Assembly (NCBI GenBank): GCA_019510485.1
Contig: JAEKKI010000100.1
Coordinates: 1 to 37,564, forward strand
DNA: 37,564 nucleotides
Source of the DNA: Catenulisporales bacterium
GTDB lineage: Bacteria > Actinomycetota > Actinomycetes > Streptomycetales > Catenulisporaceae
Direction of reading: 5' to 3'
Shown: positions 2,497-37,564 of the stretch, piece after piece
How positions within the stretch are numbered: position 1 is the stretch's first letter
Layout of the letters: each line of letters begins with the position of its first letter
Position numbers and translations under genes: made by a program
The notes under the pieces: generated by a model
Databases searched by the model: none
Seen by the model: only the letters and a program-made list of their open reading frames with translations
What the model was told of the DNA's origin: nothing

Positions 2497-4188
2497 TCAG
2501 ATCCGCGCCGGCTCCCGATACACGCCCCACTCCCCGCGCAGCGCGTCGCAGATCTCGCCGAGCGTGGCCTCGGCCCGGGCCGCGTCCAGCATCGCCGGCA
2601 CCATGTTCGCGCCCGAGCGCGCCGCGTCCAGCATCGCCGCCAGCGCCGCCTCGACCGCCGCCGAGTCGCGTGCGGCCTTGCGCTCGGCCAGCACCCGTAC
2701 CTGCTCGCGCTCGACTTCGTGCGAGACCCGCAGGATCTCCAGCGGCTCCTCGATCGTGTCCATGTGCGCGTTCACGCCGACGATGCGCTTGTCGCCCTTC
2801 TCGACGGCGCGCTGGTAGGCGAAGGAGCTCTCGGCGATCTCGGAGGTGAACCAGCCGTCCTCTATACCGCGCAGCAGACCGGCGGTCATCGGGCCGATCG
2901 GGTGCGCCGCGCCGTTGGGAGCCAGGTCCAAGATCCGCTGGAAGATCGCCTCGGCCTCGGCCTCGATGCGGTCGGTGAGGGCCTCGACGTACCAGGAGCC
3001 GCCGAGCGGGTCGGCGACGTTGGCCACGCCGGTCTCCTCCATGATCACCTGCTGGGTGCGCAGCGCGATCTCCGCCGACTTCGCCGACGGCAGCGCCAGC
3101 ACCTCGTCCAGGGCGTTGGTGTGCAGCGAGTTGGTGCCGCCGAGCACGCCGGCCAGCGCCTCGATCGCGGTGCGCACCACGTTGTTGTCCGGCTGCTGCG
3201 CCGTCAGCGATACACCCGCGGTCTGGGTGTGGAAGCGCAGCCATTGCGCCTTCTCGGTCTTGGCGCCGTACACCTCGCGCATCCAGCGCGCCCAGATCCG
3301 CCGGGCCGCGCGGAACTTCGCGATCTCCTCGAAGAACTCCACGTGCGCGTCGAAGAAGAACGACAGCCCGGGGGCGAATACGTCGACGTCCATCCCGCGC
3401 GACAGGCCCAGCTCGACGTAGCCGAAGCCGTCGGCCAGCGTGAACGCCAGCTCCTGCGCGGCCGTGGACCCGGCCTCGCGGATGTGGTAGCCGGACACCG
3501 ACAGCGGCTTGTACGCCGGGACCTTCTCGGCGCAGAACTCCATCAGGTCGCCGATCAGGCGCAGGTGCGGCTCGGGGTCGAACAGCCACTCCTTCTGCGC
3601 GATGTACTCCTTGAAGATGTCGGTCTGGAGCGTGCCGTTCAGCCGGCTGAGATCCACACCCTGACGTTCGGCGGCGACCAGGTACATGCAGAAGATCGGC
3701 ACGGCCGGGCCGCTGATCGTCATGGAAGTGGTGACGTCGCCCAGCGGGATGCCGTCGAACAGGATCTCCATGTCGGCCGCGGAGTCGATGGCCACGCCGC
3801 AGTGCCCGACCTCGCCGAGGGCGCGCGGGGAGTCCGAGTCGTGTCCCATCAGCGTCGGCATGTCGAAGGCCACCGACAGCCCGCCGCCGCCGGCGTCCAG
3901 GATCATCCGGTAGCGCTCGTTGGTCTGCTGGGCGTTGCCGAAGCCGGCGAACTGCCGGATCGTCCAGGGCTTGCCGCGGTATCCGGTGGGGTGGATCCCG
4001 CGGGTGTACGGGTACTCCCCCGGCCACCCGATCCGCTCGAAGCCGGGGACGTCGGCGCCCTCGGGCGGGCCGTAGGCCGGCTCGACTTCGTCGCCGGAGA
4101 TGGTGGTGAAGTCGGCGTCCCGCTTGCGTGCGGCGTCGTAGCGCGCCTGCCAGCGAGCGCGGCCCGCGGAGATCTGCTCGGAGTCCAT
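2497..4188 (-). CDS. icmA: Isobutyryl-CoA mutase large (substrate-binding) subunit
   Basis: 563 residues. This is the acyl-CoA mutase TIM-barrel subunit without the C-terminal B12 domain, so it needs a separate small subunit (IcmB), which is not in the window. The reaction is reversible rearrangement of isobutyryl-CoA and n-butyryl-CoA with adenosylcobalamin, in valine catabolism and polyketide precursor supply. Two residues separate it from methylmalonyl-CoA mutase. In the WTIRQFAGF motif the residue is Phe80 where methylmalonyl-CoA mutase has Tyr89, and in KEYIAQKEW it is Gln198 where that enzyme has Arg207. Phe/Gln is the known isobutyryl-CoA mutase pair, and the numbering matches the characterised enzyme. 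No good Shine-Dalgarno precedes the ATG; instead TAAAAT lies 6 nt upstream, suggesting a leaderless mRNA. The MarR gene upstream is the likely regulator. Confidence 0.9.
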
Positions 4189-7938: not shown

Positions 7939-9867
7939 GTGCATCGGGTCCCATTGAGAGCGGCCGCGGGATTGGGAACAGCGGCGATCACGCTGTTCGC
8001 CACGGCGGCCACCGGAGTGGCGGCGACGTCGTCGACCTCCGGCTCATCCTCGTCGTCGGGCACCGCGAACCCTTACGCGCCGACGTACGGTCACCCCTAC
8101 CGGCACGGCGCTGTCCCCAACCTCGCGCAGTACCAGAAGCAGAAGGCGTGGGACGCCACGCATCCGGCTGCCGCGGCGGTCGGGGCGGCCACCGGTCCGG
8201 AGACGCTGTCCTACGGCGGCGGCATCGACGGCACCGGCGTCACCTCCGGTGCCAAGTCCCAGGTCTATCTCGTCTTCTATGGCAGCCAATGGGGGACGCA
8301 GACCACCGATTCGAACGGCAACGCCAAGTTCTCGACCGACACCGCCGGAGCCGCCGGCGTCGCCCAGCAGATGTTCAAGGGCATCGGCACCAACAACGAG
8401 CTGTGGTCGGCGGACCTCACGCAGTGGTGTGACGGGGCCGGAGTGAGCACCGGTGCCACGTCCTGCCCGGCCAGCCTGCCGGCCAGCCAGTTCGTGCCCT
8501 ACCAGAGCGGCGGCGTGCTCGCCGGCGTCTGGTACGACAACTCCGTGGCCTCGCCGTCGACCGCGAGCGGGCACCAGCTGGGGCAGGAGGCCCTGAACGC
8601 GGCGCACCACTTCGGCAACACCACCGCCGCGGCCAACCGGCACGCGTACTACGTCATCCTGTCCCCGAAGGGCACGAACCCCGACAGCTACCAGGGCCAG
8701 TACTGCGCGTGGCACGACTACAACGGCGACAGCACGCTCACCGGCGGCGCGATCAGCTCCGACGTGGGCGACTTCGCCTTCTCCAACCAGCCGTACAACA
8801 TCGACTCCGGCTCCGGCTGCGGCGTGGGCTTCGTGAACTCCCCCGGGACCACCGACGGCTACACCATCACGCTGGGCCACGAGTGGCACGAGACGCTGTC
8901 CGACCAGAACCCGGCCGGCGGCTGGACCAACCACACCGGCTCGTCGTTCGACGGCCAGGAGAACTCCGATGAGTGCGCGTGGCTGTCCCCCGGCTCGTCC
9001 GGCGGCGCCGCGAACGTCTCCTTCGGCTCCTTCGGCACCTACGCCCAGCAGGCCTCCTGGTCGAACGACACCAACTCCTGCGCGATCTCGCACCCGATCG
9101 TGCAGCACGGCGGCGGCGCCGAGACGGTCACGGTGACGAACCCGGGGAGCAAGAGCTCGACCGTCGGCACCGCGATCGGCACTGTGCAGATCTCGGCGAC
9201 CGACTCGGCGGGCAAGTCGCTGACCTACTCGGCCACCGGGCTCCCGGCCGGCCTGTCGATCAGCTCCTCCGGCGCCATCACCGGCACCCCGACCACCGCC
9301 GGCACCTATAACGTCACGGTGACGGCCTCCTCGGGTACCGCCTCCGGCAGCACCTCCTTCTCCTGGACCGTGAACCCGGTCGGCACCGGCTGCACCGCGG
9401 CCCAGCTGTTCGGCAACCCGGGCTTCGAGACCGGAAGCGCCACGCCGTGGACGCTGACCGCGGGAGTGCTGAACAGCTCGTCCTCCGAGCCGGCCCACTC
9501 CGGCAGCTGGGACGCGTGGATGGACGGCTATGGCACGACCCACACCGATTCCGTTTCGCAGAAGGTGACCATCCCGTCCACCTGCAAGTCGGCGACGCTC
9601 GGCTTCTGGCTGCACATCGACTCCGCGGAGACCACGACCACCACGGCCTTCGACAAGGTCACCGTGCAGGTCCTGAACTCCTCCGGCACCGTGGTCGCCA
9701 CGTTGGCGACGTACTCCAACCTCAACAAGGCGAGCGGCTACGCGTCGCACTCCTTCAGCCTGACCCCGTACATCGGCCAGAGCATCACCTTGAAGTTCAC
9801 CGGCACCGAGGACTCCTCGTTGCAGACCTCGTTCGTCCTGGACGACACGAGTGTGAGCGTGAGCTGA
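7939..9867 (+). CDS. Large secreted protein with Ig-like domain, peptidase-like
   Basis: 642 residues from GTG 7939, preferred over an upstream in-frame GTG at 7912 because GGAGAGG lies 8 nt before it. Residues 1-29 are a Sec signal peptide (Arg near the N-terminus, hydrophobic core, cut near GVAA). A Ser/Gly linker follows. Residues about 85-390 are an unrecognised globular domain with several Cys and the motif [10 protein letters not shown] (H314, E315, H317, E318), then a Cys/Trp-rich segment. This looks like a metallopeptidase-type active site but is not a standard HEXXH. Residues about 397-478 are a putative Ig (He_PIG) domain with [14 protein letters not shown] and GTPTTAGTY. Residues about 490-642 are a jelly-roll-like, possibly carbohydrate-binding domain ending [11 protein letters not shown]. 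The substrate is unknown. Confidence 0.75.
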
Positions 9868-9883
9868 CGCGGTAGCGCGACCG

Positions 9884-9916
9884 GCTGCGTGCCCCGGCTA
9901 ACCCAGGGCACGCAGC
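9884..9916. terminator. Hairpin shared by two convergent genes
   Basis: Perfect 11-bp arms, GCTGCGTGCCC (9884-9894) and GGGCACGCAGC (9906-9916), around an 11-nt loop. It begins 16 nt past the stop of the secreted protein gene and contains the stop codon of the leftward LLM gene. There is no T-tract. It could be a bidirectional terminator. Confidence 0.5.
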
Positions 9917-10770
9917 TCCGGCAGCCGCCCGGCGACCTGTTCCAGGTCGGCGAGCGGCTGATCCGGGGCGAAGAACAGCACGATCTCGGTGAAACCGGCC
10001 TCGCACCAGGGCGCCACGTCGTCCACCACCCGACGTGGATCCGGTCGCAGCTGCACCGAGCGCCGGATCTCCTTCGGGTCCCGCCCGACCTCGGCACACC
10101 AGCGATCCAGCACACCGGACAGCCGCGAGGCCTCGGCCACTCCGGAATGGTTGACGGTGTTCCAGACGTCGGCCTGCTCGGCCACCAGCCTCAGCATCCG
10201 CTTCTCGCCGGTGCCGCCGAGCCAGACCGGCGGGTGCGGAGCCTGGAGGGGTTTCGGCGCGTGCACCGCTTTGTCGAGGGTGTAGTGCTCGCCGGCGAAG
10301 TCTGTGAAGCGCGCCGGGGACCACAGGGCTTTGACGACCGCGAGCGCCTCGCCGAGTTTCTCAATACGCTGCCGTGCGCCGCCGAGCTCCAGATCCAGCA
10401 TCCGGTGCTCGTACTCGGCCCAGCCGGCGCCGATGCCGAACTCCAGACGGCCGCCGGACAGATGGTCGACGGTGGTGGCGATCTTCGCCAGCACCGCCGG
10501 GTGGCGCAGCGTGTTCGCGGTGACCATGCAGCCCAGGCGCGCGGTGCGGGTCTCCGAAGCCATGGCGGCGAGCAGCGTCCAGCCGTCGTACACGTCGATC
10601 GCCGGATCCGGTTCGGCCACCGTGGCGGCGTTGCCGACCCCGGCCAGGTGGTCGTAGACCCACAGGTGGTCGAACCCTGATTCGTCGGCCAGCCGCCAGA
10701 AGCCGCGCAGCGCGGCGATCGTCGTGCCCTGCGGTACCAGCTTCGCGCCGAACCGTATCGGATGCGTCAT
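9898..10770 (-). CDS. LLM-class F420-dependent oxidoreductase
   Basis: 290 residues from ATG 10770 (MTHPIRFGAK). Luciferase-like monooxygenase TIM barrel. Typical segments are LADESGFDHLWVYDHL near the N-terminus, then TARLGCMVTANTLRHPAVLAK, and GGRLEFGIGAGWAEYEH (about residue 130), which is the family signature near the flavin/F420 site; PPVWLGGTGEKRMLRLVAE (about 195-213) follows. In actinomycetes most of this subgroup use coenzyme F420; the substrate is unknown. The gene lies 40 nt downstream of ilvD on the same strand, with no clear ribosome site or promoter of its own, so co-transcription is likely, although no functional link to valine/isoleucine synthesis is evident. Confidence 0.85.
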   Translation of the reverse strand: MTHPIRFGAKLVPQGTTIAALRGFWRLADESGFDHLWVYDHLAGVGNAATVAEPDPAIDVYDGWTLLAAMASETRTARLGCMVTANTLRHPAVLAKIATTVDHLSGGRLEFGIGAGWAEYEHRMLDLELGGARQRIEKLGEALAVVKALWSPARFTDFAGEHYTLDKAVHAPKPLQAPHPPVWLGGTGEKRMLRLVAEQADVWNTVNHSGVAEASRLSGVLDRWCAEVGRDPKEIRRSVQLRPDPRRVVDDVAPWCEAGFTEIVLFFAPDQPLADLEQVAGRLPELRALG

Positions 10771-10810
10771 CGTGGTGGGGAGCAGGCCTGCGCCGCCGGA
10801 GCCCGGCGCC

Positions 10811-12655
10811 CTACTTGCCGATCTGGCCCAGATCGCGCACGCCGCCGGTGGCGGCGCTGGACGCCAGCGCGGCGTAGGCGCGCAGGGCGACGGACACCTG
10901 GCGGTCGCGCTCGCGCGGCCGGTATCCGCCGAGCTTGGCAAGGAGCCCGGCCCGGCGCCGCTCCAGCACCTCGGGCTCGACGTCCAGGTGCAGGCTGCGG
11001 GAGGCGATGTCGACCTGGACGATGTCGCCGTCCTCGACCAGGGCGATCACTCCGCCGGCCGCCGCCTCCGGGGAGACGTGGCCGATGGACAGCCCCGAGG
11101 TGCCGCCGGAGAAGCGGCCGTCGGTGACCAGCGCGCACTTGGCGCCCAGGCCCGTGCCCTTCAGGAACGCCGTCGGGTACAGCATCTCCTGCATGCCGGG
11201 GCCGCCCTTGGGGCCCTCGTAGCGGATGACCACGACGTCGCCGGCGACGATCCGCTTGGCCAGGATCGCCTCCACGGCGTCGTCCTGCGATTCGAAGACC
11301 TTGGCGGGACCGGAGAACCGCCAGATCTTCTCGTCCACGCCGGCGGTCTTCACGATCGCGCCGTCGGCGGCCATGTTGCCCCACAGCACGGCCAGGCCGC
11401 CGTCCTTGGTGTAGGCGTGCTCCAGGTCGCGGATGCAGCCGGCCTCGGCATCAGTGTCCAGACTCGCCCACCGGTTCGCGGTGGAGAACGGCTCGGTGGT
11501 GCGCACGCCGCCGGGCGCGGCGTGGAACAGCTCCACGGCCGCCTCGGACGCCTTGCCGCCGCGCACGTCCCACTCGTCGAGCCAGGTCTGCAGGGTCGGG
11601 GCGTGCACCGAATGAACATCCTGATCCAGCAGCCCGCCGCGGTTCAGCTCGCCGAGGATCGCCGGGATGCCGCCGGCGCGGTGCACGTCCTCCATGTGGA
11701 ACTGGCTGCTGGGCGCGACCTTGGAGATGCACGGCACGCGCCGGGAGACCTGGTCGATGTCCTTCAGGCCGAAGCCGACCCCGGCCTCCTGCGCGGCGGC
11801 CAGCAGGTGCAGCACGGTGTTGGTGGAGCCGCCCATGGCCACGTCCAGGGCCATCGCGTTGCCGAACGCCGCCGGGGTGGCGATGGCGCGCGGCAGGACC
11901 GACTCGTCGTCGCCCTCGTAGTAGCGCTTGGCGAGCTCCACGACCGTGGCGCCGGCCCGCTCGAACAGCTGCCGCCGCGCGGCGTGGGTGGCCAGCACCG
12001 AGCCGTTGCCGGGCAGGCCCAGCCCGAGGGCCTCCACCAGGCAGTTCATCGAGTTGGCGGTGAACATGCCGGAACAGGAGCCGCAGGTGGGGCAGGCGGA
12101 GCGCTCGATGCTGCCGAGCTGCTCCTCGGTGACCGCGTCGTTGGCGGAGGCGATCATCGCGTCGATCAGGTCGATCTTGGAATGCACCACGCCCTCGATG
12201 GCGGTGGTCTTCCCGGCCTCCATCGGCCCGCCGGAGACGAACACGGTCGGGACGTTCAGCCGCAGCGCGGCCATCAGCATGCCCGGCGTGATCTTGTCGC
12301 AGTTGGAGATGCACACCAGCGCGTCGGCGCAGTGCGCGTTCACCATGTACTCCACGGCGTCGGCGATCAGCTCCCGGCTGGGCAGCGAGTAGAGCATGCC
12401 GGCGTGGCCCATCGCGATGCCGTCGTCCACCGCGATGGTGTTGAACTCCTTGGCCACGCCGCCGGCTTCCTTGACGGATTCCGCGACGATCTCGCCGACG
12501 TTGCGCAGGTGCACGTGGCCGGGCACGAATTGGGTGAAGGAGTTGGCCACCGCGACGATCGGCTTGCCGAAGTCGTCGTCCCCCATCCCGGTGGCCCGCC
12601 AGAGCGCGCGGGCCCCCGCCATGTTGCGTCCGTGCGTGCTGGTCCGCGACCGCAT
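10811..12655 (-). CDS. ilvD: Dihydroxy-acid dehydratase
   Basis: 614 residues, full length for the family. It converts 2,3-dihydroxy-isovalerate and 2,3-dihydroxy-3-methylvalerate to the 2-keto acids in valine, leucine and isoleucine synthesis, using an iron-sulfur cluster and Mg2+. Visible hallmarks are [10 protein letters not shown] (C119), [19 protein letters not shown] (C188, C191, C194), [11 protein letters not shown], and near the C-terminus [23 protein letters not shown]. The start [18 protein letters not shown] matches the usual N-terminus. The ATG lacks a good Shine-Dalgarno. It is divergent from the membrane protein at 12737 and followed by an LLM oxidoreductase. No attenuator-like leader is visible in the short upstream gap. 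Confidence 0.95.
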
Positions 12656-12724
12656 GGACTCTACCGTTCCAAGCGCGTCCGGGAAGTGGACGGTGGGGGC
12701 TATGGGGTCCGCGGCGGCCGTGCG

Positions 12725-12736
12725 TACTATCGGCGC
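12725..12736 (+). promoter_or_regulatory. Leaderless-type -10 before the membrane protein gene
   Basis: TACTAT (12725-12730), six bases CGGCGC, then GTG at 12737. There is no Shine-Dalgarno. It lies in the 81-bp gap divergent from ilvD. Confidence 0.55.
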
Positions 12737-13543
12737 GTGGGGAAATCCGGGCGGGAGCCGAGCGCGCTGGACCTGGTGGCATGGGGGCCGAAACCGCGGC
12801 GCGGCGGCCGGATCTGGCTGTGGGTCTTCCTGGTGTTCGCCACACTCGTCGGGCTCACGACCGCGATCGTCACGGTGGTCGCCTCGGTGACGCTGGTGAC
12901 GGCGCAAACCGATCAGGACAGCTACGACCGGGCGCCGTTCTGCGCGATCGGGGCCGCGAACACGCACGACTGCGTACTGCGCACGACCGCGACCGTCACC
13001 TTCGTCGACGCGACGAAGAACACCGGCAAGCACGCGCACGGCTACACGACCGACGTCGGCCTCGACCCGGACGTCGGTGATTGGCAAGCGGTCACGGTCA
13101 GCAAGTCGCGCGACCTGACGGCACAGATCTCGACCGACGACCGCTGGCCGGTCCTGGTGTGGCGCGACGAGATCACCCGCTACACGGTTCTCGGCGCGAC
13201 CCGCGACACAGATGAGAACCCGCATCACATCGTCGCCTGCCACCTGGCGACCGTGGCGATCTGCCTGGTGCTCGCGTCGCTGTTCGGACGTCCGGTACTG
13301 CGGCGTATGGCGGCGGCCGGGATCGCGGTCAACCGGACCCGGAACCGGATTCCGGACTGGACGCTGGCCGGTATCGCGGCGGCGACGATCTTCGCCGCGA
13401 TTCTGCGGCTGTCGTGGGCGGTGTCGGCGCTCGGGCTCTCGGGGATCGCGGTGCTGATCGGGTCGGCCGCGGTGTGGCCGTTCGTGCCGTGGGTGCGACA
13501 CCCCGAACCGGGCACGCGGCTCGCGCGGGGCCGGCGGCGTTAG
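12737..13543 (+). CDS. Four-helix membrane protein of unknown function
   Basis: 268 residues from GTG 12737, chosen because TACTAT sits 6 nt upstream and the coding character begins there. TM1 is about 26-55. A 105-residue domain follows, probably outside the membrane, with two cysteines (C69, C79) that could form a disulfide. TM2 is about 164-184, and TM3-TM4 about 208-250. The C-terminus is short and Arg-rich. This is the layout of small actinobacterial DUF3592-like membrane proteins (TM, extracellular domain, TM), but I cannot name the family securely. It is divergent from ilvD and convergent with the MarR gene at 13604. Confidence 0.75.
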
Positions 13544-13603
13544 CGCTCGGCTCCGGACCGGGTCAGGGCGGACTCGGCGCCGGACCTCGATCACCCGCCG
13601 GGC

Positions 13604-14083
13604 TCAGCTCCGTCCGGGCTCCAAACCGCGCTCTATAGCGCTCAACGCCTCCCCCAGCGCCAGCAGCTGCTCCCGGCCCATCGGCGAGACGAACGTCTCC
13701 CGCACATCCCTGACATGCGTGGGCACCGCCGCCAGCAGCTTCTCCCAGCCCGCGTCGGTCAGCACCGCGAAATAGCCGCGCCCGTCGGTCTCGCACGGCT
13801 CCCGCCGCACCAGGCCTTCCTTCTCCATGCGGCTGATCTGGTGCGACAGGCGGCTCTTCGACAGCAGCGCGCCCTCGGCCAGCTCGGTCATCCGCAGCCG
13901 CCGCAGCGGCGCCTCGGACAACCGGGCCAGGACCTCGTAGTCGATCAGCGTGATCCCGTGGCCGCGGCTGAGGCTGGCGTTGAGCCGGTCCGGCAGCAGG
14001 CGCATCACCGAGATGTAACGACGCCACACCGCCTGCTCGTCGTCGTCGAGCCAGGGTGGTTCCCGGGTGGCGTCGTCACTCAT
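13604..14083 (-). CDS. MarR-family transcriptional regulator
   Basis: 159 residues from ATG 14083. N-terminal WLDDDEQAVWRRYISVMRLLP helix, winged helix at about 55-110 with RMTELAEGALLSKSRLSHQI as the recognition region, and MEKEGLVRREPCETDGRGYF as the wing. The C-terminal helix closes the dimer. This subgroup (W..D.E..AWR start) is common in actinomycetes and usually autoregulates or controls a neighbouring transporter or enzyme; no target is obvious here. TAAACT lies 6 nt before the ATG with no ribosome site. The gene is downstream of the DUF2127 gene on the same strand, 56 nt apart, but seems to have its own promoter. Confidence 0.9.
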   Translation of the reverse strand: MSDDATREPPWLDDDEQAVWRRYISVMRLLPDRLNASLSRGHGITLIDYEVLARLSEAPLRRLRMTELAEGALLSKSRLSHQISRMEKEGLVRREPCETDGRGYFAVLTDAGWEKLLAAVPTHVRDVRETFVSPMGREQLLALGEALSAIERGLEPGRS

Positions 14084-15454: not shown

Positions 15455-15508
15455 TCGGTCGCTTCGGTCGCCTCAGCCGCCTTAGCCGCCTCGGTCGCCT
15501 CAGTCGCT
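15455..15508. repeat. Six degenerate 9-bp tandem repeats at the 3' end of meaB
   Basis: Units of form TCRGYCGCY: tcggtcgct, tcggtcgcc, tcagccgcc, ttagccgcc, tcggtcgcc, tcagtcgct. The last unit contains the meaB stop codon. Read in the meaB direction, the array looks like repeated copies of the gene's terminal GGCGACTGA. Confidence 0.8.
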
Positions 15509-16522
15509 GACCCCGGCCACCAGCTCGTCAGCGGCCGTATACGGGTCGAGCTCGCGCCCCACCACCCGCTCGGCCAGCGCCGACAGCCGCCGGTCGCCGT
15601 GCAGGTCGCCGATCCGGGCCCGCAGCGCGGCCAGCGCGATGGCCTCGATCTCCTCGGCGGCCCGGCGCCGGCGGCGCTCCGCGAGCTTGCCGTGACTCTC
15701 CAGCCAGGCGTGGTGCTTGTCCAGCGCCGCCATGAAGTCGTCGATGCCCTGGCCGGTGGCCGCGACCGTCTTCACGATCGGCGGCCGCCAGTCGCCGGGC
15801 TCGCGCGACTCGCCGAGCGCCAGCATGTGGCCGAGTTCGCGCACGGTGGCGTCGGCGCCGTCCCGGTCGGCCTTGTTGACCACGAACACGTCGCCGATCT
15901 CCAGGATGCCGGCCTTGGCGGCCTGGATGCCGTCGCCCATTCCGGGGGCGAGCAGCACCACCGACGTGTCGGCGGTGGCGGCGACCTCCACCTCGGACTG
16001 GCCGACGCCGACCGTCTCGATCAGGACCACGTCGCAGCCGGCCGCGTCCAGCACCCGCACGGCCTGCGGGGTGGTGGCGGACAGGCCGCCGAGGTGGCCG
16101 CGCGAGGCCATGGAGCGGATGTAGACGTCGCGGTCGGTGGCGTGCTCCTGCATCCGGACGCGGTCGCCGAGCAGCGCGCCGCCGGAGAACGGCGAAGAGG
16201 GGTCGACGGCCAGGACGCCGACCCGCTTGCCCTGTTTGCGCAGCGCCGTGACCAGCGCCGAGGTCGACGTGGACTTGCCGACGCCGGGCGAGCCGGTGAG
16301 CCCCACGACGTACGCGGTGCCCGCGTACGGGGTCAGGGCCGCCATCACCGCGCGCAGCAGCGGCGAGCCGTCCTCCACGTGGGAGATCAGCCGGGCCACC
16401 GCGCGCGGGTCGCCTTTGCGGGCGCGCTCGACGAGGTCGGTCACCTCGGTCTTGTCGGTCTTGTCGGTCTTGTCGGTCTTGCCGGTCTTGTCGATCGTCT
16501 CGGCCTTCTCGGTGCTGGACAC
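15500..16522 (-). CDS. meaB: MeaB/ArgK-type GTPase chaperone of a B12 acyl-CoA mutase
   Basis: 340 residues from GTG 16522. G3E GTPase: P-loop GSPGVGKST (77-85), switch segment ETVGVGQSE (169-177), NKAD base-recognition motif (216-219), and a C-terminal dimerisation arm rich in Arg (RRRRRAAEEIEAIALAALRA). MeaB-type proteins gate adenosylcobalamin loading and protect methylmalonyl-, ethylmalonyl- or isobutyryl-CoA mutases from inactivation. In this window the only mutase subunit is IcmA, 11 kb away. It lies 26 nt downstream of the thiolase gene on the same strand, probably one operon. Residues 11-25 are a KTD/KTG tandem repeat not typical of the family and probably disordered. The 3' end runs into a second tandem repeat. 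Confidence 0.92.
   Translation of the reverse strand: MSSTEKAETIDKTGKTDKTDKTDKTEVTDLVERARKGDPRAVARLISHVEDGSPLLRAVMAALTPYAGTAYVVGLTGSPGVGKSTSTSALVTALRKQGKRVGVLAVDPSSPFSGGALLGDRVRMQEHATDRDVYIRSMASRGHLGGLSATTPQAVRVLDAAGCDVVLIETVGVGQSEVEVAATADTSVVLLAPGMGDGIQAAKAGILEIGDVFVVNKADRDGADATVRELGHMLALGESREPGDWRPPIVKTVAATGQGIDDFMAALDKHHAWLESHGKLAERRRRRAAEEIEAIALAALRARIGDLHGDRRLSALAERVVGRELDPYTAADELVAGVSD
16448..16495 (-). repeat. 9-bp tandem repeat coding (DKT)n in the MeaB N-terminus
   Basis: About five copies of a 9-bp unit (cttgtcggt on the plus strand, starting at 16451, 16460, 16469, 16478 and 16487; the fourth and fifth differ by one base each). They encode D-K-T or G-K-T triplets at residues 11-25. 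Copy number could vary in frame. Confidence 0.85.
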
Positions 16523-16548: not shown

Positions 16549-17745
16549 TCAGCCGCGCTCGGGCACGGTGATGATCAGGGCGTCGCCCTGACCGCCGCCG
16601 CCGCACAGCGCCGCCGCACCCGTGCCGCCGCCCCGGCGCTGGAGCTCCAGGGCCAGGGTGAGCACCAGGCGCGCGCCGGACATGCCGATCGGGTGGCCCA
16701 GCGCGATGGCGCCGCCGTTGACGTTGACGATGTCCTCGCCGACGCCCAGGTCCCGCATGGACTGCACGCCGACCGCGGCGAACGCCTCGTTGATCTCGAT
16801 GAGGTCCAGGTCGGCGACGGTCAGGCCCTGCTTGGCCAGGGCGTGCCGGATGGCGTTCGAGGGCTGCGACTGCAGGGAGGTGTCGGGACCCGCGACGTTG
16901 CCGTGCGCGCCGATCTCGGCGAGCCACTCCAGGCCCAGCTCCTCGGCCTTGGCCTTCGACATGACGACCACGGCCGCGGCGCCGTCGGAGATCTGCGAGG
17001 AGGTGCCGGCGGTGATGGTGCCGTCCTTGGTGAAGGCCGGACGCAGCGCGGCCAGGCCCTCCACGGTGGTGTCGGGGCGGATGCCCTCGTCGGCGGTGAC
17101 CACGATCGGGTCGCCCTTGCGCTGCGGGATCCGGACCGGGGTGATCTCGGCCTCGAACACGCCGTTCTTCCGCGCGGCGGCCGCGCGCTGGTGCGAGCGG
17201 GCGGCGAACTCGTCCTGCGGCGCGCGCTCGATGCCCAGCCGGGCGTTGTGCTTCTCGGTGGACTGACCCATGGGGATCTTCTCCCACGGGTCGGTGAGGC
17301 CGTCGTGGGCCATGGCGTCGAGCATCTCGACGGCGCCGTACTTGAAGCCCTCGCGCGACTTGGGCAGCAGGTGCGGGGCGTTGGTCATCGACTCCTGACC
17401 GCCGGCCACGACGATGTCGAACTCACCGGCCCGGATCAGCTGGTCGGCCAGCGCGATCGCGTCCAGGCCGGACAGGCAGACCTTGTTGACGGTGATCGCC
17501 GGCGTGGTCAGCGGGATGCCGGCGGCATAGGCGGCCTGCCGCGCCGGGATCTGCCCGGCACCGGCGGTCAGCACCTGGCCCATGATGACGTACTGCACCT
17601 GCTCGGGGCCGACCCCGGCACGCTCCAGCGCGGCCTTGATCGCGACCCCGCCGAGCTCGGCGCCGGAGAAGTTCTTGAGGGAGCCCAGGAGCCGCCCCAT
17701 GGGGGTGCGCGCGCCTGCGACTATGACCGACTTGGTAGCGCTCAT
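16549..17745 (-). CDS. Acetyl-CoA C-acetyltransferase (thiolase)
   Basis: 398 residues from ATG 17745, with GGAGAG 6-7 nt upstream. Thiolase fold with nucleophile C90 in [33 protein letters not shown], catalytic His in [17 protein letters not shown], and second Cys in [12 protein letters not shown]. The motifs suit a biosynthetic acetoacetyl-CoA thiolase, reversible condensation of two acetyl-CoA. With the 3-hydroxyacyl-CoA dehydrogenase at 36087 and a Ccr it would supply butyryl-CoA and ethylmalonyl-CoA; it may also serve degradation. It is followed by meaB after 26 nt and divergent from the epimerase gene, a pairing I recall from Streptomyces. Confidence 0.93.
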
Positions 17746-17849
17746 GACGATGCTCTCCAGTGTCTGCCGAGGTGAGGGGAACGTAACAACCACTGCTGCC
17801 CGACAGCCTAGTCACCGGTAATTTACGCGTCAGTAGCTCAGGGTGTCAC

Positions 17850-17919: not shown

Positions 17920-18372
17920 ATGCCATCTCCCCTCACTCGCATCGACCACATCGGCATCGCGTGCCACGACCTCGACGAGACGGTCGAGTTCTACCGCGCG
18001 ACCTACGGTTTCGAGGTGTTCCACACGGAGGTCAACGAGGAACAGGGCGTCCGCGAGGCGATGCTGAAGATCAACGACACCGGCGACGGCGGGGCTAGCT
18101 ATCTGCAGCTGCTGGAGCCCATCCGCGAGGACTCGGCCATCGCGAAGTGGATGGCGAAGAACGGGGAGGGGGTGCACCATGTCGCGTTCGGGACGGCGGA
18201 TGTGGTGGGGGTGACGGCGGACATCGTCGGGAAGGGTGTGCGGTCGCTGTATGAGGTGCCGCGGCGCGGGAGTATGGGGTCGACGATCAACTTCTTGCAT
18301 CCTAAGGATGCCCATGGGGTGTTGGTGGAGTTGGTGCAGGCGACTGACAGCGACGGGCACGCCGAGCACTGA
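17920..18372 (+). CDS. mce: Methylmalonyl-CoA epimerase
   Basis: 150 residues from ATG 17920, with AGGAGGA about 8 nt upstream. Vicinal-oxygen-chelate fold with two beta-alpha-beta modules. Metal ligands of the family are visible as H10 (RIDHIGIA), Q63 (SYLQLLEP), H87 (GVHHVAF) and E137 (GVLVELVQ). It interconverts (2R)- and (2S)-methylmalonyl-CoA, linking propionyl-CoA carboxylation to methylmalonyl-CoA mutase and supplying polyketide extender units. It is divergent from thiolase-meaB. In Streptomyces it lies, as I recall, next to scy; here 6.5 kb separates them. Confidence 0.94.
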   Translation: MPSPLTRIDHIGIACHDLDETVEFYRATYGFEVFHTEVNEEQGVREAMLKINDTGDGGASYLQLLEPIREDSAIAKWMAKNGEGVHHVAFGTADVVGVTADIVGKGVRSLYEVPRRGSMGSTINFLHPKDAHGVLVELVQATDSDGHAEH

Positions 18373-23150: not shown

Positions 23151-23345
23151 AGCCCCGTCAAGGTGCCGCACGCCGATAAGCGACCGTCCCGATCTGTGAC
23201 AAGCACCACCTAGCCACGACGCGACGGCCGCGCCATAGTTACCAATGAGTAGCTCCCGCTCCCTCACTCCCAGGGCCGGCAGCCGTACCGCCCTCACGGA
23301 CGGCAAGCCGAGGCCCGCGACACCGCCGACCTCTGGAGGCCGACG

Positions 23346-24612
23346 ATGCAGCACGAGACAGCAGAGATCCTGGCGGCGATCCAGGCCGGGGACACCCCGG
23401 CCGCGGACTTCGCGCACCTGAAGCTTCCCGACTCCTACCGCGCGGTGACCGGCCGTCCCCGAGCTCGGACCGGGCGAGGCGATCGTCGCGGTGATGGCCA
23501 GCGCCATCAACTACAACTCGGTGTGGACCTCGATCTTCGAGCCGGTCAGCACCTTCAGCTTCCTCAAGCGCTACGGCCGGGTCTCCGAGCTGACCCGCCG
23601 GCACGACCTGCCGTACCACGTGATCGGCTCGGACCTGTCCGGCGTGGTGCTGCGCACCGGCCCCGGCGTCAACAAGTGGAAGCCCGGCGACGAGGTGGTC
23701 GCGCACTGCCTGAGCGTCGAGCTGGAGGACGCCGAGGGCCACGACGACACCATGCTGGACCCGCAGCAGCGGATCTGGGGCTTCGAGACCAACTTCGGCG
23801 GCCTGGCGCATCTGGCCCTGGTGAAGGCCAACCAGCTGATGCCCAAGCCAGGGCACCTGACCTGGGAGGAGGCCGCCTCCCCCGGCCTGGTCAACTCCAC
23901 CGCCTACCGCCAGCTGGTCTCCAAGAACGGCGCGGCGATGAAGCAGGGCGACGTGGTCCTGATCTGGGGCGCCTCCGGCGGCCTGGGCAGCTACGCGACG
24001 CAGATGGCGCTCAACGGCGGCGCGATCCCGGTCTGCGTCGTGTCTTCCGCCGACAAGGCCGGGCTCTGCCGCGCCATGGGCGCCGAGCTCATCATCGACC
24101 GCGCGGCCGAGGGCTACCGGTTCTGGAAGGACGAGAATGAACAAGACCCGAAGGAATGGCAAAGGTTCGGCTCCCGGATCAGGGAACTGACCGGCGGCGA
24201 GGACCCGGACATCGTCTTCGAGCACCCCGGCCGGGAGACCTTCGGCGCCAGCGTGTACGTCGCCAAGCGCGGCGGCCTGATCGTCACCTGCGCGTCCACC
24301 TCCGGCTTCATCCACAGCTACGACAACCGCTACCTGTGGATGAACCTCAAGCGCATCATCGGCTCGCACTTCGCCAACTACCGCGAGGCGTGGGAGGCCA
24401 ACCGCCTCATCGACAAGGGGATGATCCACCCGACTCTGTCGAAGACGTACCCGCTGGCCGAGACCGGGCAGGCGGCCTACGACGTCCATCGGAACCTCCA
24501 CCAGGGGAAGGTAGGCGTACTGTGTCTAGCACCGGAGGAAGGCCTGGGGGTGCGCGACGCGACCAAGCGCGAGCGACTACTGCCGGCCGTCAACCGGTTC
24601 CGGAACGTCTGA
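23346..24612 (+). pseudogene. ccr: Crotonyl-CoA carboxylase/reductase, internal deletion and frameshift
   Basis: The start is intact: GGAGG at 23335-23339, then ATG 23346 and 35 good codons ending DSYRAVT (23450). Homologues then have about 29 residues (VHKDE...DEVP) before VPELGPGEA. Here only 4 nt (23451-23454) lie between, and VPELGPGEAIVAVMAS resumes in the +1 frame at 23455, running intact to TGA 24612. The original frame ends at 24140. About 83 nt are therefore missing, giving a frameshift. Ccr carboxylates and reduces crotonyl-CoA to ethylmalonyl-CoA with NADPH. All later active-site groups remain: the Asn of AINYN, Phe-Glu of GFETNF, the NADPH loop WGASGGLGSYA, and the His of GSHFANY. 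A product from GTG 23491 would lack the N-terminal GroES-like region. No meaA is adjacent. It is either a fresh pseudogene or a sequence error. Confidence 0.85.
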
Positions 24613-24826: not shown

Positions 24827-24864
24827 GTGTCATCCGGCCGGAAATCTGACACGATTCACTGTCA
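24827..24864. promoter_or_regulatory. Cluster of TGTCA/TGACA half-sites before scy
   Basis: GTGTCA (24827-24832) faces TGACAC (24847-24852), and a third half-site TGTCA (24860-24864) overlaps the scy start codon. TCCGGCCGGA lies between the first pair. There is no clear ribosome site before the scy ATG. Candidate regulator site. Confidence 0.35.
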
Positions 24865-27800
24865 TGGGACCAGGGCGCCTCGACGAACGCAGCACGGATC
24901 GCTACGGCGATCGTGCCGGCGACCGCGGATCCCATGCCAGACGCGGCGGACCCGGCGAACGCGGGGTGCCACCGAACGGCTACCCCCCGCGTTCGCGCTC
25001 GTCGTCTCCCGGCGATTACGACTACTGGGAGGACGAGCGCGACGCCGGCTATGACCGGCATGACGTCGAGGCGACCTTCTCCGAGATGGAGAAGGAGCTC
25101 GAAAAGCTCCGCTCGGCCCGGGACGAGGCCGTCACCGACACCGAGGACCTGCGCTACCAGATCGAGGTCCTGCGCTCGAAGCTGCACGAGCAGCGCCGCA
25201 TCGCCGCGCAGCCGCGCTTCGACAACATCTCCGGGCAGGTGGAGCAGATGCTCCGCAACGCCCAGATCCAGGCCGACCAGGTCCGCGCCGCCGCCGAGCG
25301 GGAGCTGCGCGAGTCCCGGGCCAAGACGGCCCGGCTGCTGGAGGAGGCCGCGCACCGCTCCGCGGAGCTGGAAGCCGAGTGGCACACCGAGGTCGGCAAC
25401 CGCCGGCAGTCGCTGGACCGGGAGCTGACCGAGAAGCGGCAGCAGGCCGAGGCCCAGGTCAACGAGATGGCCGCGTGGGCGGAGAAGGTCCGCGCGGACA
25501 CCGAGGCGCACCGCGGCCGGATCATCGAGGCGGCCCGGGCCGAGGTCGAGGCCGGCCGCGACCGGATAGCGATGGAGACCGCGCAGGCCATCGAGCACGT
25601 CCGCATGGAGACCGAGAACATGCGGACCGCGGCGCGCGCCGAGGCCGAGAAGACCCGCGAGGCCGCGAACCTGGAGGCCGACCGGGTGCTGGCGGCCGCC
25701 GGCGGCCAGGCGCAGCAGGCGCAGGAGCACGCCGCGCAGATCCGGGCCACCGCCAAGGCCGAGGCCGAGAACGCGCTGAACGCCGCGCGCGCCGAGGCCT
25801 CCCGGATGCTGATGGAGGCCGGCGCCCAGGCCGAGCGGACCCGCGCCGAGAGCAGCGCCGAGGCGATGCGGGTGCGCGGCGAGGCGGACGCGGCCGCGCA
25901 GCAGGCGCGGGCCGAGGCCGCGAACGACGCCGCGCGGGTGCGCACCGAGGCCCGGATGGAGGCCGACCAGCTCACCGGCAACGCCGCACGGACCCTGGCC
26001 GATGCCGAGGAGCAGGCCGCCGCGCGCCTGGAGGCGGCCGCCCGCACCGTCGAGGATCTCATCGCCAAGGGCCGCGCCGACGCCGACGCCACCCGGCGGG
26101 CCGCCGAGGAGGACGTGGCGCCGCTGCGCGGGCAGATCGAGGCCCTGCACGCGCAGGCCGACGAACTGCACGCGGCGGCGCAGCTGGCACACGAGGACGC
26201 GCACACCGCGGCCGAGCAGTTGCGCGCCGACACCGAGGCCGGCGTCGAGGCGCTGCGCACCGCCGCGCGCGAGGAGATCGGGCGGATGCGCGATAAGGCG
26301 CAGGCCCGGATCGACGAGCTCCAGGAGCGGACCGAGGCCGAGACGGCACAGATCCGCGCGGACGCGGACGCGTACTCGCAGAACACCCGCGGCGAGGCCG
26401 ACACCTACGCCACCGCGACCCGGACCGAGGCCGACAGCTACTCCGCGACCACCCGCGCCGAGGCCGAGAAGCTGCGCGCCGACAGCGACGACTACGCGCG
26501 CACGGTACGGCAGGAAACTGATTCCTACGCCGCGCACACCCGCGCCGAGGTCGACGCCGAGACCGGCAAGGTGCGCGCGGACGCCGACAGCTACTCCCAG
26601 CAGATGCGGCAGTCGGCCGACCAGTACTCGGCCCAGGTCCGCGGGGACGCGGAGAACTTCGCGCACTCGGCGCGCGCCGAGGCCGAGGCGTACGCGGCGA
26701 AGACGAAGGCGGATGCCGAGCGCGCCGGGGAGCTAACGCGCGCGGACGCCGACGCCTACGCGGGCAAGGTCAAGGCCGACGCCGACACGTTCGCGGCCAG
26801 GACCTCCGCCGAGGCCGAGCGCGCCGGCGAGGCCGTCCGCGCCGACGCCGACCGGTACGCGGACGCCACCCGCGCGGACGCCGAGGGCTACGCGGCGAGC
26901 ATGAAGGCCGAAGCCGAGCGCGCGAGCCAGGCCACCCGGACCGCGGCGGACGATTACGCGAACGCCAGCCGGGCCGAAGCGGAGTCGTACGCGGCGAAGA
27001 CGAAGGAAGACGCCGACCGCGCCGGCCAGCTCACCCGCGCCGAGGCCGACTCCTACGCCGCCCAGACCAAGCAGGCGGCCGAGCAGGCCGCGGCCCAGAC
27101 CGTCGAGGCCGCCGAGCGCGAGGCCCGGCGGATCGGCGAGGAGGCCGAGCGCTACGCCGCCGGGGTCCGGGCCGAGGTGGCCGGGATCGTCGACGAGGCG
27201 CAGAGCGCCGCCGACCGGCAGATCGCCGAGGCCGAGCGGATCCGCAGCGAGGCCGAGACCGCCGCGGCGATGCTGGGTGTGGAAGCCGCCGAGGAGTCGG
27301 CGACGGTCCGCTCCGAGGCCCGCCGGGACGCCTCGGCGATGCGCGCCGAGGCCGAGGCGGCGCTGGCCGAGGCGCGGACCAAGAGCGAGACGATGGTCAC
27401 CGCGGCCAAGTCCGAGTCCGAGCGCATCCACCACGAGGCGGCGGAGGCCGCCGAGGCCGCGCGGCTGGACGCCGACCGGATCCGGGCCGAGGCGCGCGAG
27501 GAGGTCGGCCGCAAGCTGGAGACCGCCGGCCGGGACGCGGACAAGCTGATCGCGGTGGCGCGGCAGGAGGCTGCGAAGCTGCGCGCCGGTTCCGAGGCCG
27601 AGGCGGACCGGCTGCTGGCCTCGGCCCGCGAGGAGGCGCAGCGGGTCACCACCGCGGCGCAGGAGGACGCCGAGCGGGCCACCTCCGCGGCGCGTGCGGA
27701 CGTGGAACGGATACGGCGTACCGCCGACGGCGTGCTGGAAGCGGCCGACGAGAAGGCGCGCCAGACCCGCGAACAGGCCAGCACCGAGGCCGAGGAAGCC

Positions 27801-28040
27801 GTCACCGTCGCGCGCAAGCAGGCTGCTGAGACCGTCGCCGAGGCCCGGGAGCTGGCCGAGCAGCTGGTGGCCAAGGCCACCGAGGAGACCGAGCGGCTGC
27901 GGGCCGAGGCCAAGCGCGAGGTCGAGGAGATCGAGGTGCGCAAACAGGAGATCAAGGCCGAGATGGCGCGCGTGCACGGGGTGCTGGACGCCCTGGCGAC
28001 CTCGGTATCAGTCCCGGTCGGACCGCCGTCCGGGGATTGA
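24864..28040 (+). CDS. scy: Scy-like polar-growth coiled-coil scaffold
   Basis: 1058 residues from ATG 24864. Residues 1-65 are a polar, disordered tail. From about 67 the protein is nearly all alpha-helical coiled coil, very rich in Ala, Glu, Arg and Gln. The segment around 75-115 (LEKLRSARDEAV, YQIEVLRSKLHEQRR) and QVEQMLRNAQIQADQVRAAA match the conserved start of Streptomyces Scy. Scy organises the hyphal-tip polarisome with DivIVA and FilP and helps set tip number and septation. It is shorter than S. coelicolor Scy (about 1300 residues as I recall). Residues 498-746 are a regular 11-residue repeat, listed separately. The coiled coil ends near 1040 (EIEVRKQEIKAEMARVHGVL). filP follows on the same strand, as in Streptomyces. 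Confidence 0.9.
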   Translation: MGPGRLDERSTDRYGDRAGDRGSHARRGGPGERGVPPNGYPPRSRSSSPGDYDYWEDERDAGYDRHDVEATFSEMEKELEKLRSARDEAVTDTEDLRYQIEVLRSKLHEQRRIAAQPRFDNISGQVEQMLRNAQIQADQVRAAAERELRESRAKTARLLEEAAHRSAELEAEWHTEVGNRRQSLDRELTEKRQQAEAQVNEMAAWAEKVRADTEAHRGRIIEAARAEVEAGRDRIAMETAQAIEHVRMETENMRTAARAEAEKTREAANLEADRVLAAAGGQAQQAQEHAAQIRATAKAEAENALNAARAEASRMLMEAGAQAERTRAESSAEAMRVRGEADAAAQQARAEAANDAARVRTEARMEADQLTGNAARTLADAEEQAAARLEAAARTVEDLIAKGRADADATRRAAEEDVAPLRGQIEALHAQADELHAAAQLAHEDAHTAAEQLRADTEAGVEALRTAAREEIGRMRDKAQARIDELQERTEAETAQIRADADAYSQNTRGEADTYATATRTEADSYSATTRAEAEKLRADSDDYARTVRQETDSYAAHTRAEVDAETGKVRADADSYSQQMRQSADQYSAQVRGDAENFAHSARAEAEAYAAKTKADAERAGELTRADADAYAGKVKADADTFAARTSAEAERAGEAVRADADRYADATRADAEGYAASMKAEAERASQATRTAADDYANASRAEAESYAAKTKEDADRAGQLTRAEADSYAAQTKQAAEQAAAQTVEAAEREARRIGEEAERYAAGVRAEVAGIVDEAQSAADRQIAEAERIRSEAETAAAMLGVEAAEESATVRSEARRDASAMRAEAEAALAEARTKSETMVTAAKSESERIHHEAAEAAEAARLDADRIRAEAREEVGRKLETAGRDADKLIAVARQEAAKLRAGSEAEADRLLASAREEAQRVTTAAQEDAERATSAARADVERIRRTADGVLEAADEKARQTREQASTEAEEAVTVARKQAAETVAEARELAEQLVAKATEETERLRAEAKREVEEIEVRKQEIKAEMARVHGVLDALATSVSVPVGPPSGD
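26355..27101 (+). repeat. 22 hendecad (11-residue) repeats inside Scy
   Basis: Residues 498-746 divide into 22 units of 11 residues plus one 7-residue unit (RAEAEKL). The consensus is R-A-x-A-[DE]-x-[YA]-A-x-x-[TV], for example RADADAYAGKV, KADADTFAART, SAEAERAGEAV, RADADRYADAT, with Tyr/Phe often at position 7. Each unit is 33 nt. Hendecads give an almost straight or right-handed coil rather than the left-handed heptad coil. Confidence 0.85.
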
Positions 28041-36086: not shown

Positions 36087-37564
36087 TCAGCCAGTCCGGT
36101 AGTCGCGGAACCCGCGTCCGGCCTTGCGTCCCAGATAACCCGCGGTCACCAGGTGTTCCAGCAGCGGCGCCGGCGCGAACCCCGGCTCGCGGAACTCCTG
36201 GTAGAGCACCCGTTGGATCGCCAGCGACACGTCCAGGCCGACCACGTCAAGCAGTTCGAACGGCCCCATCGGGTAGCCGCAGCCGCGCTTCATCGCGGTG
36301 TCGATGTCATCAGCGGTGGCGTAGTGCGCCTCGAGCATCCGGACTGCGTCGTTCAGATAGGGGAACAGCAGCGCGTTCACGATGAACCCGGCGCGGTCGC
36401 CGCAGTCCACTGTGACCTTGCCCAGTTCGCGGCAGACCGCGTGCACCGTGGCCACCACGTCGTCGGCGGTCTTGACCGTCCGCACCACCTCGACCAGCTT
36501 CATCACCGGCGCCGGGTTGAAGAAGTGCACGCCGACCACGTCGGCCGGGCGCTGCGTGGCCATCGCGCACTCGATCACCGGCAGCGAGGAGGTGGTGGTG
36601 GCCAGCACGGCGCCGGGCTTGCACAGCTCGTCGAAGTTCGCGAACAGCGCGCGCTTGACCTCGGCGTCCTCCACGACTGCCTCGACCACCAGGTCGCAGT
36701 CGGCCAGCTCCGCCAGGTCCGTGGTGCTTCGCAGCCGCGCGAGCGCGGCGTCCCGCTCGTCCTCGGCGAGCTTGCCGCGCTGCACCGCCTTCTCCAGCGA
36801 ACGGGTGATCGCCGCACGGGCCGCGTCGGCCTTGGCCGTCGCGCGCGCCACCAGCACCGTCTCGTAGCCGGCCTTGGCGCAGACCTCTGCGATGCCGGCG
36901 GCCATGGTGCCCGAGCCGACGACGCCGATCCGGGACACCGGCCGGACCTGCGCGCCGTGCCGGGGCGTCCCGGCGCCGTCGGGCGGGAGGGCGTCCGGGA
37001 CGACGGCCGGCGAGGCAGGGCTCTCATAGGTGTAGAAGCCGCGCCCGGTCTTGCGGCCGAGCAGGCCCGCGGTCGCCATCTGCTTCAGGATCGGCGCCGG
37101 GGCGTGCAGCCGGTCGCGCGACTGCCGGTACATGGTGTCGAGGATCTCGTAGGCGGTGTCCACGCCGATCAGGTCCAGCAGCGCCAGCGGCCCCATCGGC
37201 AGGCCGCAGCCCAGGCGCATGGCGGTGTCGATGTCCTCGCCGGTGGCGTACTTCTGCTCGTACATCGACACGGCGTGGTTCAGGTAGCCGAACAGCAGCG
37301 CGTTGGCGATGAAGCCGGCCCGGTCGCCGCAGGTGACGTCGTCCTTGCCGAGCCGGCGCACCAGCGCCTCGACGTCGGCGACCACCTCGGGGTCGGTCAC
37401 CACGGTGCGCACCACCTCGGCCAGCTTCATGACCGTGGCCGGGTTGAAGAAGTGCACGCCGACCACGCGCGCCGGCCGCGCGGTCGCCACCGAGATCTCG
37501 GTGACCGACAGCGCCGAGGTGTTGGTGGCCAGGACGGTCTCCGGCGGGCAGATGGCGTCCAGGC
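36087..37564 (-). CDS. hbdA: Two-module 3-hydroxyacyl-CoA (3-hydroxybutyryl-CoA) dehydrogenase, partial
   Basis: 492 residues are visible; the N-terminus lies beyond the right edge, and the reading frame stays open to base 37564. It carries the end of a first 3HCDH module (TNTSALSVTEI, VVGVHFFNPATVMKL with catalytic His, DRAGFIANALLFGYLN) and then a complete second module. The second has a Rossmann loop RIGVVGSGTMAAGIAEVCA, TTSSLPVIECA, VVGVHFFNPAPVMKLVEVV, DRAGFIVNALLFPYLND and the C-terminal KRGCGYPMGPFELLDVVGLD. Both keep Ser-His-Asn catalytic residues, so both may be active. A tandem dehydrogenase of about 590 residues is known in Streptomyces. It oxidises or forms 3-hydroxyacyl-CoA with NAD(P), here fitting acetoacetyl-CoA to 3-hydroxybutyryl-CoA. 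Confidence 0.9.
   Translation of the reverse strand, partial: LDAICPPETVLATNTSALSVTEISVATARPARVVGVHFFNPATVMKLAEVVRTVVTDPEVVADVEALVRRLGKDDVTCGDRAGFIANALLFGYLNHAVSMYEQKYATGEDIDTAMRLGCGLPMGPLALLDLIGVDTAYEILDTMYRQSRDRLHAPAPILKQMATAGLLGRKTGRGFYTYESPASPAVVPDALPPDGAGTPRHGAQVRPVSRIGVVGSGTMAAGIAEVCAKAGYETVLVARATAKADAARAAITRSLEKAVQRGKLAEDERDAALARLRSTTDLAELADCDLVVEAVVEDAEVKRALFANFDELCKPGAVLATTTSSLPVIECAMATQRPADVVGVHFFNPAPVMKLVEVVRTVKTADDVVATVHAVCRELGKVTVDCGDRAGFIVNALLFPYLNDAVRMLEAHYATADDIDTAMKRGCGYPMGPFELLDVVGLDVSLAIQRVLYQEFREPGFAPAPLLEHLVTAGYLGRKAGRGFRDYRTG

Follow-up and report, generated by a model that had tools for sequence, protein, structure and literature searches.

Crotonyl-CoA carboxylase/reductase (Ccr) is understood to convert crotonyl-CoA to ethylmalonyl-CoA in the assimilation of acetyl-CoA, and the family (TIGR01751) includes several solved relatives (3hzz, 3krt, 6owe, and 6na3). 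According to the legend of a review figure, His, Asn, Phe, and Glu accommodate CO2 (PMC10176493). Streptomyces lividans, as described in a passage on this organism, lacks isocitrate lyase, and the ethylmalonyl-CoA pathway is thought to substitute (PMC3017869). A second described situation is that of spurious pseudogenes: according to Cooley and Wright 2024, assembly errors account for many of the genes with broken frames in public bacterial genomes, and their avoidance needs high coverage (PMC11017572).

Here, we analyzed a window of 37,564 nucleotides, i.e., contig C118 of the draft genome (G000) of a Catenulisporales bacterium. Its ccr belongs to the sequence family of known Ccr over 373 residues, likewise has its catalytic residues, and lies in a gene neighbourhood common to four genus relatives. 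It differs in that the assembled sequence lacks 83 nt near the 5' end and has a broken frame (Table 1). Based on sequence comparison, the break very probably arose as an artefact, either in the assembly or through chimeric library molecules. With its excess of frame-broken genes, its incompleteness, and the inclusion of core genes, the draft resembles the cases treated by Cooley and Wright 2024, whose abstract concerns frameshifts and internal stops generally, whereas the lesions in G000 are blocks of 34-140 nt (PMC11017572).

Table 1 Features of the window and block lesions elsewhere in the same draft genome
Feature	Position	Strand	State or size (nt)	Support
ccr (crotonyl-CoA carboxylase/reductase)	23346-24612	+	broken as assembled	
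5' ccr piece, 35 codons, TGGAGG ribosome site upstream	23346..23450	+		alignment with nine genus relatives
Junction in ccr	23450..23451	+	83 nt missing	MAFFT, blastn, tblastn
3' ccr piece, +1 frame to normal stop	23451..24612	+		ccr identity, TIGR01751
GTG, proposed restart codon	23491..23493	+		start of no homologue examined
MM_CoA_mutase-family protein	2524..4104	-	open	PF01642, 687.8 bits
meaB (mutase-associated GTPase, of related function)	15500..16447	-	open	TIGR00750, 347.7 bits
Acetyl-CoA C-acyltransferase	16552..17793	-	open	TIGR01930, 450.4 bits
Methylmalonyl-CoA epimerase	17920..18369	+	open	TIGR03081, 143.1 bits
D-Ala-D-Ala ligase	L148 (C274:58901-78900), ~1278 or ~17932 (pair shared with recG)		-34	4/4 relatives
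recG	L148 (C274:58901-78900), ~1278 or ~17932 (pair shared with ligase)		-116	4/4 relatives
DMF-like gene	C274		-140	4/4 relatives; named by eye, no family match
ROK kinase			-44	5/5 relatives
Ser/Thr kinase			-110	4/4 relatives
Further gene	C274 ~63,010	-	-127	versus both G004 and G006
acs (acetyl-CoA synthetase)	L154 (C88) ~4066		+34	5/5 relatives without it

The broken state of ccr in the assembled sequence is confirmed. As the preliminary description held, the gene begins normally, with ATG 23346 behind TGGAGG and 35 regular codons ending at 23450 (84% identity to residues 1-37 of the G004 protein piece), and then suffers an internal loss of about 83 nt with a frameshift. In a MAFFT alignment with 12 relatives, nine from the genus and three more distant, the window ccr has a single 83-column gap, at which 12 of the 12 carry 83 bases. 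The net difference by tblastn was -83 against G004 as well as against G006, and blastn alignments with four relatives were all interrupted at the junction. About 29 codons had been thought to be replaced by four nucleotides; the loss stands, but the replacement does not, as GGCC at 23451-23454 is the beginning of the right flank (...GTGGCG... in the relatives) and there is no replacement insert. From 23451 the gene continues in the +1 frame to a stop codon at 24610-24612, and the claim that this remainder carries no other lesion is borne out by 93-94% identity of the 373 residues from GTG 23491 to the copies of nine genus relatives. The 3' piece scored 557.6 bits with TIGR01751, exceeding the curated cut-off of 378.55, while model positions 1-43 found no match in it; a full-length open ccr frame including the N-terminal part is absent from the sequence as assembled. 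The later catalytic residues are intact, as had been claimed: the equivalents of Asn81, Phe170, Glu171, and His365, which we take to be the CO2-pocket residues in K. setae numbering, all occur in the 3' piece at a constant offset of 72.

The lesion is confined to the draft among the genomes compared, being absent from nine genus relatives, all of them other species. It is the sole window event in a codon-usage frame-switch scan. A two-reference test against G004 and G006 (33 ORF tests over the window region, each gene counted once per reference) likewise gave G000 a single split place in the window, at ccr, with no sign of gene decay elsewhere in the window. A repeat search of positions 23300-23600 found no direct repeats as a cause of deletion.

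The suggestions that translation might restart at GTG 23491, or that homologues might naturally start there, found no support. A natural start at this codon was rejected because none of the homologues examined begins there. At least 55 open residues precede its position at 29 of 29 loci (L009-L037) and at 79 of 80 named loci, the one exception (L051) being cut by a contig end; these two sets overlap, as they stem in part from the same genomes (e.g., L016/L038, L017/L039). Among the ten solved family chains listed, the match starts at chain residue 55 to 95. The frame from 23346 passes GTG 23491 and runs to 24137, so that there is no stop to which a restart could be coupled. The sole ribosome-site-like bases before the GTG are GAGG, 11 nt upstream, a spacing larger than usual, and the 3' product has no counterpart to positions 1-27 of the GroES-like ADH_N model. 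One might still propose that ccr is truly shortened yet used, by +1 slippage at CCC-C or by restart at GTG 23491 or ATG 23494. Sequences in which CCC is followed by C are of the +1-slippery type, such a candidate lies at 23457-23460 just 3' of the junction, and the 3' part is undamaged. However, a slipped product would still miss the block and a restart product the rest of the N-terminus too, while all the loci above that are not cut by a contig end are open through this part, at least 54 residues precede the matched start in the ten solved chains listed, and the GTG is served by a distant GAGG at best. We regard this reading as extremely improbable.

The draft comprises 5,532,790 bases in 326 contigs and is 77.22% complete and 0.57% contaminated. 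A ccr match at E <= 1e-60 was present in 58 of 60 genomes searched, G000 included; the open frame has 387 residues in G000 and at least 434 for the top match in each of the remaining 57 genomes. The genome search for a second ccr that had been recommended gave no full-length copy in this draft, which is just 77% complete, and the other 15 matches in G000 (E <= 0.001) were partial with at most 39% identity. A second ccr as a backup was rejected on these grounds. Relocation of the block within the draft was also rejected: with the G004 protein piece as query, the missing 83-nt block was not found elsewhere in G000, where this piece matched the two ccr flanks and otherwise yielded just three weak hits (E 0.085 to 0.98). 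Plasmid copies of ccr are represented by 49 records.

The reported absence of meaA is correct for the window and incorrect for the genome, as an open meaA is encoded at 9656-11071 of the adjoining contig C227. The window ends in 139 bases (37426-37564) that are identical to the first 139 of C227 (L131), which identifies C227 as the next contig and places meaA about 22 kb from ccr, compared with about 37 kb in G004. The meaA on C227 is collinear with the G004 copy and matches the mutase model over the same segment as does the gene adjoining ccr in G014 and G016. An open HpcH/HpaI-family (malyl-CoA-lyase-type) gene is located on contig C212 of the draft. Isocitrate lyase gave no match in G000 in a search of ten genomes, six of which were genus relatives; three of these six had partial matches that spanned about 90-110 of 526 positions and exceeded the family cut-off (37.5-56.1 bits), and the other three had none. 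Since a match is missing in G000 and matches in the relatives are partial or lacking, loss of ccr should be costly.

Besides ccr, seven further block lesions, several of them in core genes, occur in the same draft (Table 1). In the ligase, recG, acs, and ROK genes, the two halves hit consecutive portions of a single family model for each gene. D-Ala-D-Ala ligase is normally essential for cell-wall synthesis; it had a single match at E <= 1e-60 in G000 and one per genome in nine relatives, and with its 34 missing nucleotides a gene that cannot be lost is among those affected. The acs lesion, an exact 34-nt tandem duplication that breaks the frame, is the least telling, because a second acs-like copy is present in five of the six genus relatives searched. 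Over C274:1-78,900, 105 ORF tests against G004 and G006 gave four split places in G000 (-34, -116, -127, and -140), whereas tests run from the side of G004 and of G006 yielded one listing apiece, namely the broken DMF-like ORF of G000 in reverse; C274 was chosen because three lesions were already known there, so that four versus none is a description and not an unbiased rate. In the window region, split places numbered one in G000 (ccr, -83) and two in G006 (+2 and +1 nt), with none in G004, and the frame breaks of relatives whose size was determined were of +1 and +2 nt only, the former in a kinase of G006. In the first protein comparison, a coverage filter had hidden ccr, recG, and the DMF-like gene. 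Two listings of that comparison were lost under stricter identity and overlap filters, namely a 139-residue ORF in the C274 region whose second piece is 50% identical and a 373-residue ORF seemingly split in G004, with a second piece of 56% identity in a gene that aligns in two frames.

Recurrence of lesions in the draft above the level of its relatives is also apparent from the frame-switch scan, a Viterbi scan on the codon-usage signal that was trained on 15 window genes with ccr left out and that reports same-strand frame switches without a nearby stop and start. The 25 stretches of G000, which came from contigs with matches in earlier searches and were no random draw, gave 11 events in 398,458 bases (window included) at the loose setting, versus six in 695,238 bases of the relatives (G004, 3/279,702; G006, G007, and G009 together, 2/118,124; G001, 0/140,000; G002, 1/100,000; G003, 0/57,412). 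With the window excluded, the strict setting gave seven events in 360,894 bases of G000 versus one in the 695,238 bases of the relatives (one-sided binomial P 0.003), three of the seven lying on the single contig C274; the contrast was weaker at the loose setting (10 versus 6 events, P 0.019). ccr itself passes the loose setting and fails the strict one because its 5' piece has 35 codons only. Four of the 11 loose events (L131, L136, and two in L155) and one of the seven strict events (L136) have no assigned lesion. At L136 (C220), near a contig end, the stretch 9248-9938 recurs in a different frame of the same strand and is possibly another misjoin.

The preliminary description had made no choice between a very recent deletion and an assembly or consensus error. 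The evidence favours the error, and the deletion is the less supported of the two. The ligase is normally essential and has one strong match, which makes its clean out-of-frame loss very unlikely in a growing cell; as like lesions occur at several places in the draft, a technical cause is the simplest explanation, ccr included. We infer that such a cause is common to the block lesions, the ccr lesion being part of that set. The break would then have arisen in assembly, or from chimeric library molecules used by the assembler, and not by mutation of the organism, whose cells probably carry an intact ccr, like the relatives examined, and make the enzyme. Chimeric library molecules, local low-coverage assembly errors, and wrongly joined ends are possible routes. 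The undamaged rest of ccr and the fragmented (326 contigs), incomplete (77%) state of the draft support an artefact. Drop-out through G+C content or hairpins found no support in the missing blocks of five genes, which show nothing exceptional in G+C or folding, with the most GC-rich (ROK) at the 90th percentile. The 398 kb of G000 examined contain no N runs, and the 139-base contig overlap suggests a de Bruijn assembler, which normally requires reads spanning a junction; together these two observations count against an artefact.

The same requirement for spanning reads speaks for a real, very recent 83-nt deletion that made ccr a pseudogene in the lineage or in a fraction of the population sampled and left the ethylmalonyl-CoA pathway without its carboxylase, as do the single clean lesion in a gene of otherwise high identity and the lack of a second full-length ccr in the G000 draft. 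However, like lesions affect a normally essential ligase with a single match as well as recG and acs, meaA and the HpcH/HpaI-family gene are present and open in G000, and loss of ccr in a genome without an isocitrate lyase match should be costly, so that we consider a real deletion unlikely. It is less likely still that a Catenulispora lineage has just lost ccr together with several other genes by block deletions, with meaA and other pathway genes kept and no isocitrate lyase shown, although, if true, this would represent an actinomycete observed while its acetyl-CoA assimilation is being lost. Under the favoured explanation of a technical error, the broken ccr probably has no biological meaning and its value is one of caution on drafts. 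Annotation of G000 would record Ccr, D-Ala-D-Ala ligase, RecG, and one acetyl-CoA synthetase as non-functional, and inferences on metabolism from the draft as assembled would be erroneous. Even without reads, faulty drafts of this kind can be flagged by a frame-switch scan in which relatives serve as the control.

Other differences between the window and its relatives lie outside ccr. On the 5' side of meaB, positions 16436-16507 form an array of the nine-base unit GTCGGTCTT, at which G000 has about 60 bases that are absent from four relatives. In the region 12657-13604, G006 has two ORFs and G004 one for which the window offers no match. Positions 24864-28040 encode a 1058-residue ORF, whose only match, of apolipoprotein type, is below the cut-off; this ORF has internal repeats and varies in length among relatives.
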